Shown piece after piece: positions 39,172-43,967 of a DNA stretch of 64,000 bases. The position numbers and the translations under genes are program-made. The stretch covers positions 111,688 through 175,687 of the forward strand of contig WSYC01000006.1 in the NCBI GenBank assembly GCA_009773635.1. The letters run 5' to 3'. Position 1 is the stretch's first letter; every line of letters begins with the position of its first letter. A model generated the notes under the pieces. The model was not told the origin of the DNA, ran no database searches, and saw nothing but the letters and a program-made list of their open reading frames with translations. The stretch comes from Beijerinckiaceae bacterium. GTDB lineage: Bacteria; Pseudomonadota; Alphaproteobacteria; Rhizobiales; Beijerinckiaceae.

Positions 39172-39184
39172 GAAATAGACAGGC

Positions 39185-39310
39185 CGTCATGGCCGGGGCA
39201 TAGCCGTTCTCCAAAGACGGCGTTCTTTCAGAACACCTATGGCCCGGCCATCCACGACTTGAAGACAGGTAGTTTAGTCGTGGATGCCCGCTACACGGGC
39301 GGACATGACG
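39185..39310. repeat. Composite palindromic repeat between nuoB and nuoC
   Basis: A 126-base element of nested inverted repeats: outer CGTCATG/CATGACG, an inner pair GGCCGGGGCATAG / CTATGGCCCGGCC (12 of 13), and ATCCACGAC/GTCGTGGAT (perfect 9 bp). It occupies nearly all of the nuoB-nuoC gap. The phrase around GTCATGGCCGGG is one I associate with dispersed repeats in Bradyrhizobium-like genomes. The folded RNA may affect mRNA stability between the two genes. Confidence 0.8.
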
Positions 39311-39326
39311 AGCGGAGAGGGGCGCG

Positions 39327-39962
39327 ATGTCCGAAGCACTGCACATTCTCGCGGCGCATATCGAAAAGGCCCTGCCGGGCAAGGTGACCGGGCACGAGAT
39401 CGCCTATGGCGAACTCACGCTTCACGCCGAGGGCGCGGCGATCGTCGATGTCGTGAAGTTCCTGCGTGACGACGCCGATTGCGGCTTCCTCAACCTCACC
39501 GACATCTGCGGCGCGGATTATCCGGCGCGCGCAAAGCGCTTCGATGTCGTCTACCACTTCCTGTCCCCGAAGCACGTGCGGCGCATCCGCATCAAGGTTC
39601 AGACGGATGAGGTAACGCCGGTGCCCTCGATCACAGGGGAGTTTCCGGGCGCGAACTGGTTCGAGCGCGAAGCCTACGACATGTATGGCATGCTCTTTAC
39701 CGATCACCCGGACCTGCGCCGCCTGCTGACGGATTACGGCTTTCAGGGCCACCCCTTGCGCAAGGATTTCCCGCTCACGGGCTACGTCGAGGTCCGCTAC
39801 GACGATGCCGAGAAGCGCGTTGTCTACGAGCCGGTGAAGCTCAATCAGGAATTCCGCAATTTTGACTTCCTCAGCCCGTGGGAAGGGACGGATTACGTTC
39901 TGCCGGGTGACGAGAAGGCGAAGGGGGGAGGCCATGTTGGCCTTATTAGTAGGATATCCTGA
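39327..39962 (+). CDS. nuoC: NADH-quinone oxidoreductase subunit C, with altered C-terminus
   Basis: A 211-residue subunit of the peripheral arm. The family signature is intact ([42 protein letters not shown]), and so is the usual C-terminal [25 protein letters not shown] normal stop would follow here; compared with the duplicated tail at 40266-40340 one extra base (a run of six G) shifts out the TAG, so the protein reads on for about 12 residues ([12 protein letters not shown]) and overlaps the next gene by 29 bases. Function is probably unaffected because the end is a flexible tail. Confidence 0.94.
39855..39923 (+). repeat. Direct repeat of the nuoC 3' end, copy 1
   Basis: The last 23 codons before the nuoC read-through. 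They match 40266-40334 at 61 of 69 bases; six of the eight differences are synonymous. This is the copy inside functional nuoC. Confidence 0.9.
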
Positions 39963-40248
39963 CCTGCTTTTTCTTGTCCTACCCGGCTTGGCAGGATTTT
40001 TCTTTGCCTTTGGAACATCCAGTAAGTTTGGTAAAAATTGGCGCATACTTGCTATGTTGTTGAGTATCATACCGGCAGGCTTTTTGCTTTTGATTGCGAT
40101 TCTCGGCGTCGCCTTGGGTGGAGGTCTTAGCGCTGCGTTGATCATACTAGCAATTTATGAGCATAGTGTTGTTCCTGCATTTCTGGGGTGGGGACTTACT
40201 GCGTTGATGTTGAAGTATGTTGTTTCGATAGACAGGAAATTCGAATGA
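39934..40248 (+). CDS. Small low-GC membrane protein between nuoC and nuoD (first)
   Basis: A 104-residue very hydrophobic protein with about three transmembrane helices ([40 protein letters not shown], and a third near the C-terminus) and a short charged tail (SIDRKFE). A GGGGGAGG ribosome site lies four bases before the ATG. GC content in sampled lines is about 42-48%, far below the flanking nuo genes. It overlaps nuoC at its start and the 31-codon chimera at its end (ATGA). No family is recognised. It could be an acquired membrane peptide, an effector, or a complex I-associated factor. Confidence 0.75.
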
Positions 40249-40340
40249 TCGAACAACTCAACGTGCGCAATTTTGACTTCCTCAACCTGTGGGAAGGCAC
40301 TGACTACGTGCTGCCCGGTGACGAGAAAGCGAAGGCATAG
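40245..40340 (+). pseudogene. 31-codon chimera of nuoD start and nuoC end
   Basis: An open frame [10 protein letters not shown] followed by a nuoC tail ending GDEKAKA. Its first ten codons resemble the nuoD start [10 protein letters not shown] (24 of 30 bases), and the rest duplicates the nuoC 3' end (61 of 69 bases). It overlaps the preceding gene by ATGA and stops three bases before the next ATG, so it is probably translated by coupling. I read it as the junction scar of a tandem duplication rather than a functional gene. Confidence 0.75.
40266..40334 (+). repeat. Direct repeat of the nuoC 3' end, copy 2
   Basis: Second copy of the nuoC tail, 411 bases downstream of the first. This copy keeps the stop codon (GCATAG) that nuoC has lost. 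Confidence 0.9.
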
Positions 40341-40343
40341 GCC

Positions 40344-40685
40344 ATGCTGGAATGGCTTCTCTTTCCTATGAGTCTCGGAGGAACGAGTTTCCCCATCTTC
40401 CTTTTTGGTGGGTTTGCTTTTCTGCTTGGGTTGTTTTTCAAGTTCGCGCTCGTGTGTGGAGCCTCTGTCGGAGCGGTTTCTTTGACGGCAAGCCTCTTGC
40501 TCTATGTATTGTGCTTTCCGTTGGTGATCGGACTGTTCGCTGGCGGTGTGCTGGTGAAGGATTTGGTGAGCGAGTCCTTAATTGTGGCTTACGCGCTTAT
40601 ACAGGGCGCGGGTGGAGTGCTGGGATGGTGGGCCGGAAAGCTTCTGTCGCCGTCGCTTCGTCAGAAAGGTGAACAGGTTCAATGA
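40344..40685 (+). CDS. Small low-GC membrane protein between nuoC and nuoD (second)
   Basis: A 113-residue hydrophobic protein with about three transmembrane helices ([41 protein letters not shown], and [18 protein letters not shown]) and a basic C-terminus (RQKGEQVQ). GC in a sampled line is about 43%. It starts in the same GGCCATG context as the first small gene and ends in an ATGA overlap with nuoD. The size, topology and upstream context suggest a diverged paralogue of that gene, though direct sequence likeness is slight. No family recognised. Confidence 0.75.
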
Positions 40686-41875
40686 CCGAACAACCGAATA
40701 TGCGCAATTTCACGATCAATTTTGGCCCGCAGCATCCGGCGGCGCACGGCGTGCTGCGCCTCGTGCTGGAGCTGGATGGCGAGATCGTCACCCGCACCGA
40801 TCCGCATATCGGGCTCCTGCATCGCGGCACTGAAAAGCTGATCGAGGCCAAGACCTACCTTCAGGCGGTGCCGTATTTCGACCGGCTCGATTACGTCGCC
40901 CCGATGAACCAGGAGCATGCCTACGCGCTGGCGGTCGAGAAGCTCTTGGGCATCACCGTGCCGAAGCGCGGCCAGCTCATCCGCGTGCTCTATTCGGAAA
41001 TCGGCCGTATTCTCAGCCACATCCTCAATGTCACCACGCAGGCGATGGACGTCGGCGCGCTCACCCCGCCGGTCTGGGGTTTCGAGGAGCGCGAGAAGCT
41101 GATGATCTTCTACGAGCGCGCGTGTGGTGCCCGCATGCACGCGGCCTATGTGCGCCCCGGCGGCGTGCATCAGGACCTGCCGGATGACCTCATCGACGAT
41201 ATCGATGCCTTCTGCGAGCCGTTCCTCACCTTCTGTGACGATCTCGAAGGCCTTCTGACGGATAACCGCATCTTCAAGCAGCGCAATGTCGATATCGGCA
41301 TCGTCAACCTTGATGATTGCTGGAAGTGGGGCTTCTCGGGCGTGATGGTGCGCGGCTCCGGCGCTGCGTGGGATTTGCGCCGCTCGATGCCTTACGAGTG
41401 CTATTCGGAGTTCGATTTCGACATCCCGATCGGCAAGAACGGCGATTGCTACGACCGCTACTGCATCCGCATGGAAGAGATGCGCCAGTCGATCCGCATC
41501 ATGAAGCAGTGCATCGCCAAATTGCGCGGCCCGGATGGCAAGACGCCGATCTCATCGCTCGATGGCAAGATCGTGCCGCCGAAGCGCTCCGAAATGAAGC
41601 GCTCGATGGAAGCGTTGATCCACCACTTCAAGCTCTACACCGAGGGCTATCACGTGCCTGCCGGTGAGGTTTATGCCGCCGTGGAAGCGCCGAAGGGCGA
41701 ATTCGGCGTCTATCTTGTCGCGGATGGCACCAACAAGCCGTATCGCTGCAAGGTGAAGGCACCGGGTTTTGCCCATCTTTCGGCGATGGATTTCATGTGC
41801 AAGGGCCACATGCTCGCGGATGTCTCCGCGATTCTGGGCTCGCTCGATATCGTGTTCGGGGAAGTCGATCGGTGA
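40682..41875 (+). CDS. nuoD: NADH-quinone oxidoreductase subunit D
   Basis: A 397-residue subunit that, with NuoB, forms the quinone-binding pocket. It opens with [28 protein letters not shown], the universal NuoD start with the quinone-site histidine, and continues with [25 protein letters not shown]-like [17 protein letters not shown], and ends with [12 protein letters not shown], also typical. Full length and intact despite the disturbed region before it. Confidence 0.97.
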
Positions 41876-42183
41876 GGCGCGGGGCGACATGGCCAAGGGT
41901 CATGCTGCCCGTTTCCGTCCGCCTGCGACCATGCCGGGTCTGGCCTTTTGCCTGAGAAGCCGGTGCTCCTGTCGCGATGTTGCCGGACTGCCGCCGCTGT
42001 CACGCGGCGCTGCTGCGCCTGAAACCGGAGGCCATGTGTGGATCACCCGAATGTCGGGTGTGATGATCTGAGTTTTTAGCGTTTCCAGACTTGCTCCAGC
42101 CGGTGAGGGTGGTAAGACCCGAACATTGCCGCGCTGCGGTAGATCTGGCTTCGAGTCCGATTGAGCGCGTTCGAGGAAGAAAG
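41876..42183. other. nuoD-nuoE gap with a small doubtful ORF
   Basis: A 308-base gap inside the operon, unusually long. A 60-codon frame begins at 41889 (MAKGHAARFRPPATMPG) after a GGGGCG stretch but has no family likeness. A terminator-like hairpin lies at 42042-42077. Otherwise nothing is recognised. Confidence 0.5.
42042..42077 (+). terminator. Terminator-like hairpin inside the nuo operon
   Basis: ATCACCCGA and TCGGGTGTGAT pair with a two-base bulge around a 3-base loop, followed a few bases later by GAGTTTTTA. Placed in the nuoD-nuoE gap, it could reduce read-through or mark an mRNA processing site. The T run is offset nine bases from the stem, so full termination is unlikely. Confidence 0.35.
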
Positions 42184-43401
42184 ATGTCGTCACGCCGCCT
42201 TGCTCCTGATGCTGTCCAGCCCGCTTCTTTCGCGTTCGACAAGGCCGGGAAGGCCATGGTCGAGACCTGGATTGCGAAATATCCCGCCGGTCGACAGGCC
42301 TCCGCCGTCATTCCGCTGCTCTGGGAAGCCCAGAAGCAGGCGGGCGGCTGGCTGCCCCGCGCCGCGATCGAGCATGTGGCCGAAGTGCTCGGCATGCCGA
42401 ACATCCGGGTGCTGGAGGTCGCGACCTTCTACACCATGTTCAACCTTGAGCCGGCTGGTACGCATTTCATCCAGCTGTGTGGCACGGTGCCGTGCCACTG
42501 CATGGGTGCGCAGGACCTCAAGAAAGTTCTGAAAGACAAGATCGGCGCCGAGCATCACGTGACGGCGGACGGCAAGTTTTCCTGGCTTGAGGTCGAATGC
42601 CTCGGCGCCTGCTGCAACGCGCCGATGGTGCAGATCAACGATGATTATTACGAGGACCTCACGCCCGAGAGCCTTGCTAAACTGATCGATGATATGGCCG
42701 CCGGCAAGCCGGTCAAGATCGGCCCGCAGAACGGGCGCAAGGCTTCGGAACCGAAGGACAGCATCAAGACGCTCAAAGATGCCGCGCTGTATGACGGTTC
42801 GGCGGTCGGATCATGGAAGAAGGCCTTCGACGAGCGCGTCGCCGCGCAGAAGAAGGCCAAGGAAGAGGCCGCCAAGGCCGCTGCTGAAGCGGGCAAGGCC
42901 ACCGGGGGCGCTCCGGCGGCGGCCCCTGCTGCGCCTGCGCCTGCTGCGGTCAAAGCGTCCGAGCCGAAAGCTCAAGCAGAGCCCAAGGTGAAGGTGGTTG
43001 CAGCCAAGGCTGAGCCTAAAGCCAAGGCCGAGCCAAAAGCTGGGTCAAAGCCCAAAGCCGCCCCCAAAGCCAAGGCCGCTCCGGCTCCTTCTGCCGCTGA
43101 ACCGGCTCCTGTGGGCGATGAATTTAAGCCCGAACTGCTCAAGGCCGCGCGGGGCGGCAAGGCCGATGATCTTGAACTGATCTGGGGCGTCGGCCCCAAG
43201 CTCGGCAAGATGCTGAACGGCATGGGCGTGTTCCATTTCGACCAGATCGCCAAGTGGTCTAACGAAAACCTCGCCTGGGTGGATCAGAACCTTGGAGCCT
43301 TCAAAGGCCGTGCCGTGCGGGACGACTGGATCGGGCAATCGAAGAAGCTGGCGACCGGCTGGCGGCCCGAGAATGCCGTTGGCGATAAACCGGTGAAATG
43401 A
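42184..43401 (+). CDS. nuoE: NADH-quinone oxidoreductase subunit E with C-terminal HhH-like extension
   Basis: A 405-residue protein. Residues 1-190 are the thioredoxin-fold NuoE with its 2Fe-2S ligands Cys99, Cys104 (LCGTVPC) and Cys139, Cys143 (CLGAC). A Lys/Ala/Pro-rich linker follows (about 245-335), then a 65-residue domain with DLELIWGVGPKLGKMLNGMG, a helix-hairpin-helix resembling the FEN1-like domain found in some alphaproteobacterial NuoE and ribosomal proteins. Classical NuoE is only about 170-220 residues. The stop overlaps the following lipoprotein gene by ATGA. Confidence 0.95.
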   Translation: MSSRRLAPDAVQPASFAFDKAGKAMVETWIAKYPAGRQASAVIPLLWEAQKQAGGWLPRAAIEHVAEVLGMPNIRVLEVATFYTMFNLEPAGTHFIQLCGTVPCHCMGAQDLKKVLKDKIGAEHHVTADGKFSWLEVECLGACCNAPMVQINDDYYEDLTPESLAKLIDDMAAGKPVKIGPQNGRKASEPKDSIKTLKDAALYDGSAVGSWKKAFDERVAAQKKAKEEAAKAAAEAGKATGGAPAAAPAAPAPAAVKASEPKAQAEPKVKVVAAKAEPKAKAEPKAGSKPKAAPKAKAAPAPSAAEPAPVGDEFKPELLKAARGGKADDLELIWGVGPKLGKMLNGMGVFHFDQIAKWSNENLAWVDQNLGAFKGRAVRDDWIGQSKKLATGWRPENAVGDKPVK

Positions 43402-43967
43402 GGCCAGCGCGCATGTTCGTTTCCCCCGCTCAGGCTGATCGTGCAGCCGGCTCGTTCGAGCCGGACCGCGCACGCCTGCTGGCGGGGCTGCTGGTTGCCG
43501 GTGGTTTGTCGCTTGGCCTCGCGGCCTGCGGCGGTGAAGTTGCCAAGAAGGTCGCCTTCGATGGGGCCGAGCACGCGGCCTATATCGCCAAGGGCAAGGC
43601 GAGCATTGACGGCGAGGGCTTTCTGCGCCGGCCCAACGGCTGGCTGGCGCGCTGCTCCGGCGGCGTTGTCTATCTCGTGCCGGCGACGCCGTATTTCCGC
43701 GAATGGGTCGAGGTCTATCGCGCCGGCAACCGGATCGCGAATTCGAGCCAGCTTAACGAGAGCCATTCGAAGGCGATCCGCAAGACCCAGTGCACCATGC
43801 AGGGCCGGTTCCAGTTCGCCGATCTGCCGGCGGGCAAGTGGATCATCGTCACCCGCGTGACCTATGATGGCAACGAGTGGAACAGCGATTCCACCCTCGT
43901 TGCCGAAGTTGAAACCAGACCCGGGGAAACCGCGACAGCGATCCTCTCCAACCCGAACCGGATTTAG
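43398..43967 (+). CDS. Putative lipoprotein between nuoE and nuoF
   Basis: A 189-residue protein with a lipobox LSLGLAACG at about residues 37-45, preceded by a hydrophobic stretch and an unusually long N-terminal lead; a later start at the second Met is possible. The mature part includes [29 protein letters not shown] and [23 protein letters not shown], which looks like a carboxypeptidase-regulatory-like beta-sandwich. Its start overlaps the nuoE stop and nuoF begins four bases after it. The role in relation to complex I is unknown. Confidence 0.75.

Follow-up and report, generated by a model that had tools for sequence, protein, structure and literature searches.

Between nuoC and nuoD, in the complex I operon of a member of the Beijerinckiaceae (contig WSYC01000006.1 of assembly GCA_009773635.1), resides a reading frame of 31 codons that begins like nuoD and ends like nuoC. 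The frame separates two small ORFs, called here orfA and orfB, and raises the question of how the head of a downstream gene was joined to the tail of the gene upstream, and of where the two enclosed ORFs came from. The stretch of DNA analysed, 64,000 nucleotides long, is referred to as the window, and positions are given along it. A preliminary description of the sequence had proposed that an ancestral nuoC-orf-nuoD unit was duplicated by unequal crossing-over, orfA and orfB being diverged copies of one gene. The relevant features are the following.

39327-39962, forward strand: nuoC, 211 codons (Pfam PF00329, E 1.9e-45)
39855-39923, forward strand: native nuoC tail, starting with CGCAATTT, identical to 40266-40334 at 61 of 69 bases
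39934-40248, forward strand: orfA, predicted helical membrane protein, 104 codons (GC 0.44, GC3 0.44)
40245-40340, forward strand: nuoD-head::nuoC-tail chimera, 31 codons, in ATGA overlap with the orfA stop
40245-40273, forward strand: copy of the nuoD head inside the chimera, ending in CGCAATTT (22 of 27 bases from the ATG; 0 of 500 shuffles)
40266-40334, forward strand: copy of the nuoC tail inside the chimera (61 of 69 against the native tail)
40344-40685, forward strand: orfB, small membrane protein, 113 codons, akin in sequence to the lone insert of the relatives L012 and L016
40682-41875, forward strand: nuoD, complete, 397 codons (Pfam PF00346, E 2.1e-119)

The chimeric frame extends from the ATG at 40245 to the TAG at 40340. 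The first 21 bases plus the octamer CGCAATTT correspond to the nuoD head; from CGCAATTT onward the frame corresponds to the nuoC tail. The octamer starts at 39855 in the nuoC tail, at 40266 in the chimera and at 40703 in the nuoD head, where it spans 40703-40710. Counted by eye, 24 of the first 30 bases are those of the nuoD start, and the match over the first 27 was equalled by none of 500 codon-shuffled heads. Local alignment of the chimera to the nuoC tail scores 105 (29 at most in 200 shuffles). Eight tail codons are changed, six of them synonymously, the other two from S to N and from P to L. NCBIfam NuoC models, the only ones to match, recognize the frame (E 9.8e-9 and 2.7e-5), and the Pfam search gave no match for it. 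The figures of the preliminary description are correct, as is its placing of the fusion point in microhomology common to the nuoC tail and the nuoD head; the frame hardly belongs to an unrelated conserved family. The start/stop coupling that it had noticed is equally present: ATGA overlaps mark the orfA stop at 40245 and the orfB stop at 40682, where nuoD starts, and the chimera TAG is followed by GCC and by the orfB ATG (TAG-GCC-ATG). The head of the downstream gene is fused to the tail of the upstream one, and the joint lies within sequence common to both parents. This composition supports the view that the 31-codon frame is a recombination scar, formed within the microhomology CGCAATTT.

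The genes around the scar are also altered. nuoC lacks the usual stop and has 12 extra codons, which run out of frame over the orfA start; in 14 of 14 congeners the native stop is found at most one codon past the aligned end of the nuoC tail. Ahead of orfA, the altered bases AAGGGGGGAGGCCATG resemble, by eye, a stronger ribosome site. GC3 is low in orfA (0.44) and orfB (0.58) compared to nuoB, nuoC and nuoD (0.81-0.88). Scanning of 39300-40800 revealed no promoter-like site, and three terminator-like sites against 1.9 expected. Elsewhere in the operon, the nuoB-nuoC spacer (39172-39326) contains a dispersed repeat with palindromic parts, which has 15 matches in its own genome, itself included; nuoD and nuoE are spaced by about 300 bases (41876-42185), and a 189-codon ORF, lipoprotein-like by eye, resides between nuoE and nuoF (43398-43967).

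A second NuoC tail of the chimera type is present in no other genome among those searched. The 31-residue peptide has a match in 369 of 397 genomes of the family, and two matches in that of the window only (1 of 397). In an order-wide draw of 377 genomes, which overlaps the family set of 397, a match was found in 346, and two only in the genome of the window and in G719. The two G719 matches are parts of open frames 231 and 275 aa long, on contigs C65 and C71 of an assembly 86% complete and 4% contaminated. Searching its own genome with the 506 bases 39855-40360 gave no further meaningful match.

The nuoC-nuoD junction is an insertion hot spot for small genes, which differ across lineages. Among the named loci of the order, which are the best 80 of 572 and include five genus members on the same contigs as the genomes numbered with G, gaps of at least 200 bp separate nuoC from nuoD in 36 of 80, nuoB from nuoC in 5 of 80, and nuoA from nuoB in 0 of 80. 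Over all the loci compared, 165 of 184 junctions are distinct; the nuoC-nuoD gap measures at least 200 bp in 65 of the 165, and 100-199 bp in 7 more. The 72 inserts of at least 100 bp, of which only representatives were searched against Pfam, were sorted into GFA (26), IVP (23), unclassified (9, window included) and smaller groups (14). Most of the cargo is unrelated (GFA, 23S-IVP, DUF2059, small membrane proteins), and lineages seem to exchange it. L015 and L069, which belong to different lineages, carry distantly related soluble ORFs at this site (27-35% identity, E 4e-8).

Within the genus of the window, 15 junctions could be read in 17 genomes; G003 was dropped for having no NuoD match, G009 for matching at a contig edge only. 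Nine of the 15 hold an insert; the cargo, of about seven types, is scattered over the tree. Six (L003, L004, L005, L007, L008, L009) are empty, with only 10-16 bases between the tail and nuoD. The inserts in the relatives are as follows.

L006: membrane ORF
L010: IVP-type protein
L011: DUF2059 plus a second ORF
L012 and L016: membrane ORFs
L013 and L014: DUF2059
L015: soluble ORF

In the nuoC+nuoD tree the window is sister to L008, which is empty, L015 and L016, and L012 falls inside the DUF2059 group; the orfB-like gene, found in the window, L012 and L016, is scattered. Relatives hold different single cargo at the same junction, as a stacking of alleles presupposes. GCGAATA-rich repeats, direct as well as inverted, border the IVP-type insert of L010, which in this respect resembles a small mobile unit. 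The comparison of junctions suggested in the preliminary description revealed relatives with one unit (L012, L016) and relatives with none. The same description held that a lone ORF free of nuoC or nuoD remnants would count against its account. L012 and L016 do carry an orfB-like gene by itself and free of remnants; since this is how the locus should have looked before the event, the test was badly chosen.

Alignment scores relate orfB to the lone insert ORF of L016: 0 of 500 shuffles reached the match in four settings, and 0 of 422 decoys the global score of 57. Relation to the L012 ORF is weaker (4 to 98 of 500 shuffles, 0 of 422 decoys). The L016 gene did not recover orfB by tblastn at E 0.01. 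The insert ORFs of L012 and L016 are identical at 31 of 110 residues, at a nuoC+nuoD dS of 0.75, and the family thus evolves fast; by simple arithmetic, about 36% identity might be expected at dS 0.60. No detectable likeness links orfA to orfB, in protein or in DNA. BLASTP gave E 0.86, and the profile comparison that had been advised a probability of 0.1; the DNA score, 49, was equalled by 101 of 500 codon shuffles, and the global score, 22.5, was reached by 11 of 422 decoys. orfA resembles the L016 ORF in hydropathy (r 0.66, 2 of 434 decoys). Both this likeness and the orfA-orfB score are hints only, because ten pairs were compared, and kinship of orfA to the orfB family is thus no more than faintly hinted at.

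Searches elsewhere gave little. orfA has no Pfam, PHROGs or PADLOC family and a weak NCBIfam match only (E 0.056); orfB has none in PHROGs or PADLOC. No convincing relatives of either were found in 328 family genomes each, and none in the plasmids and viral contigs searched; the single-sequence search with orfB also missed L012 and L016, so that failures of this kind weigh little. The few matches at E 0.0007-0.009, which mostly fell within long open frames, were attributed to chance likeness of membrane helices. A three-sequence profile retrieved from 397 genomes of the order the window and three weak matches only. A match of orfB to MTA/SAH nucleosidases (PDB, E about 0.003) was discarded as compositional, those enzymes being soluble. 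Single-sequence structure models of the two ORFs are helical, with low pTM (0.33 and 0.41). orfA alone was found at 0 of 15 genus junctions, and convincingly in none of the 328 family genomes (one genome per species).

A second case of a copied nuoD head may be found in L011. The second insert ORF of this relative begins with ATGACCCTGAAACCTGACATGCGCAA, identical at 21 of 27 bases from the ATG to its own nuoD head (0 of 500 shuffles in the anchored test). The copy directly follows the DUF2059 gene, and the true nuoD is then complete; in L013 and L014 the DUF2059 relatives have nuoD next. The resemblance to nuoD breaks off at the codons where it also does in the window. In a gapped scan the match was reached by 1 of 200 shuffles, which is not significant over 92 tests. 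The second L011 insert is likely headed by a nuoD-head copy. In a scan of at least 72 inserts no others stand out for the nuoD head, and the window alone does so for the nuoC tail. When a source for the second L011 insert was sought in 129 genomes, a good match came from its own genome alone.

The tail copies differ by a dS of 0.60 (interval 0.19-1.94); for nuoC+nuoD, dS measures 0.56 between window and L008, and 0.66 between window and L016. The tail copies differ about as much as species do, which was counted for the joining of two alleles. When the state most frequent among 14 congeners is taken as ancestral, nuoC itself accounts for two of the eight differences, neither of which alters the protein, and the chimera for the remaining six, of which four are synonymous. 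Two or fewer amino acid changes among six have a P of 0.03 under neutrality (one-sided, uncorrected). CCC at tail position 50, one of these six, is found only in the chimera, L015 and L016; it could have been inherited from a donor, and the constraint signal would then weaken. The open frame of the chimera proves little, because the chance of no stop arising in ten changes is 0.69. The preliminary description had taken the mostly synonymous changes as a mark of age or selection; the excess is there, and it hints only weakly at constraint on the chimera.

We favour, with a probability of about one half, an origin by unequal recombination at CGCAATTT, through which the cargo of two alleles, one nuoC-orfA-nuoD and the other nuoC-orfB-nuoD, would have been stacked, the scar acting as a putative translational relay. 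In an ancestor of the strain, a molecule ending with nuoC-orfA-nuoD would have recombined out of register with a related nuoC-orfB-nuoD, the crossover joining the nuoD head of the first (codons 1 to about 9) to the nuoC tail of the second. The product, nuoC-orfA-(nuoD'::nuoC')-orfB-nuoD, would hold both cargo genes and a complete nuoD. One side of the recombination was presumably anchored in nuo homology, the other in a few bases, and a piece of nuoD would thereby have been left before the new cargo, the complete gene after it. The parents were presumably different alleles, brought together by transformation or other transfer. The orfA parent allele is hypothetical, for orfA by itself was seen in none of the genomes searched. 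Ribosomes leaving orfA probably restart on the chimera at the ATGA, terminate at the TAG and, after 3 bases, initiate again on orfB, so that no untranslated stretch would lie upstream of nuoD; the chimera may serve, or at least be tolerated, as such a stop-start relay.

Duplication in tandem of one nuoC-orf-nuoD unit at CGCAATTT in this lineage, with ORFs diverged past recognition and tails still alike, would give the same joint and the same order of parts, and is a possible, if less probable, origin. The chimera tail is best placed beside the nuoC of the window (AU 0.68), and GAC and TTT near the joint are common to the native tail and the chimera, as duplication in a single lineage would give. 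The L016 lineage is also allowed (AU 0.53), which, like the CCC common to the chimera, L015 and L016, counts for two alleles; the 69 bases cannot name the donor, because 10 of 27 placements survive. The fast evolution of the orfB family, as seen between L012 and L016, goes along with duplication, as do the length of orfA, similar to that of the family, its low GC3 and the faint hydropathy likeness. Against it, orfA and orfB are less alike than orfB and the L016 gene, at a similar dS of 0.66, so that two alleles are preferred to duplication with divergence; orfB is nearer to the L016 gene than to orfA, whereas a late duplication would predict the opposite. Simulated pairs were as unlike as orfA and orfB in 0 of 200 cases at 0.45 changes per site, 6% at 0.8 and 91.5% at 1.2, by which neutral divergence of 0.45 is rejected, and 0.8 nearly so. 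The interval of the tail dS leaves room for very fast divergence. In the account first proposed, the scar and the single nuoC-orf-nuoD unit of relatives are borne out; the descent of both ORFs from one gene is a hypothesis.

A further scenario, in which one unit was duplicated in tandem and an unrelated gene then took the place of one of the ORF copies, much as single inserts are replaced at this site, is improbable: cargo does turn over inside the genus, but one more event is needed, and no intermediate was seen. The joining of two different alleles is the simpler account, because the site takes unrelated genes in many relatives. A match by chance, a fault of assembly or membership in some other conserved family of small proteins can hardly account for the frame. 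The double tail is known from one genome, of which no second assembly was seen; yet the matches are far beyond those of shuffles, the copies differ at 8 of 69 bases and cannot be a misassembled exact repeat, the chimera is interior to a contig of 358,744 bases, and NuoC models alone match.

The scar is real and unusual, its kind of origin is already known, and the turnover at the site is of more interest than the scar itself. We tentatively suggest, as a reading less probable than not, that nuoC-nuoD may be a long-lived cassette-exchange locus in the complex I operon of Hyphomicrobiales: cargo would be swapped via the nuo flanks and sometimes stacked, nuoD codons 8-10 would be a repeated breakpoint (window, L011), and scars would be kept as short translated relays holding operon translation together. 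The locus preserves, in readable form, the addition of a gene to a conserved and co-translated operon that stayed intact. The hot spot makes testable, by comparison of close species, how cargo genes enter core operons, and the scar offers a simple test case for translational relays. A literature search for inserts between nuoC and nuoD found no direct precedent, the passages of PMC9696053 and PMC8115037 included.

The locus shares with tandem duplication or unequal crossing-over at microhomology the joint in a short common word and the part order of an out-of-register exchange, and differs in that orfA and orfB cannot be recognised as copies of each other. 23S rRNA intervening-sequence proteins (PF05635) are frequent cargo of nuoC-nuoD in relatives (23 of 72 inserts), whereas neither orfA nor orfB is a member by Pfam. 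In alphaproteobacterial nuo/nqo clusters, unidentified reading frames may be found between complex I genes. The window also has extra ORFs among such genes; in its genus, by contrast, they vary between species and come with a recombination scar. Homology-facilitated illegitimate recombination in transformation has one end in long homology and the other at few bases. The nuo genes would be the long homology in the window, where the donor and the transfer route, in contrast, are hypothetical. In CDI and Rhs systems variable cargo is swapped between conserved flanks, and older cargo is left, displaced, by a partial copy of the flank. The window has no recognised toxin or immunity gene, and its host operon is that of complex I, but variable cargo resides here too between conserved flanks, beside a partial flank copy.
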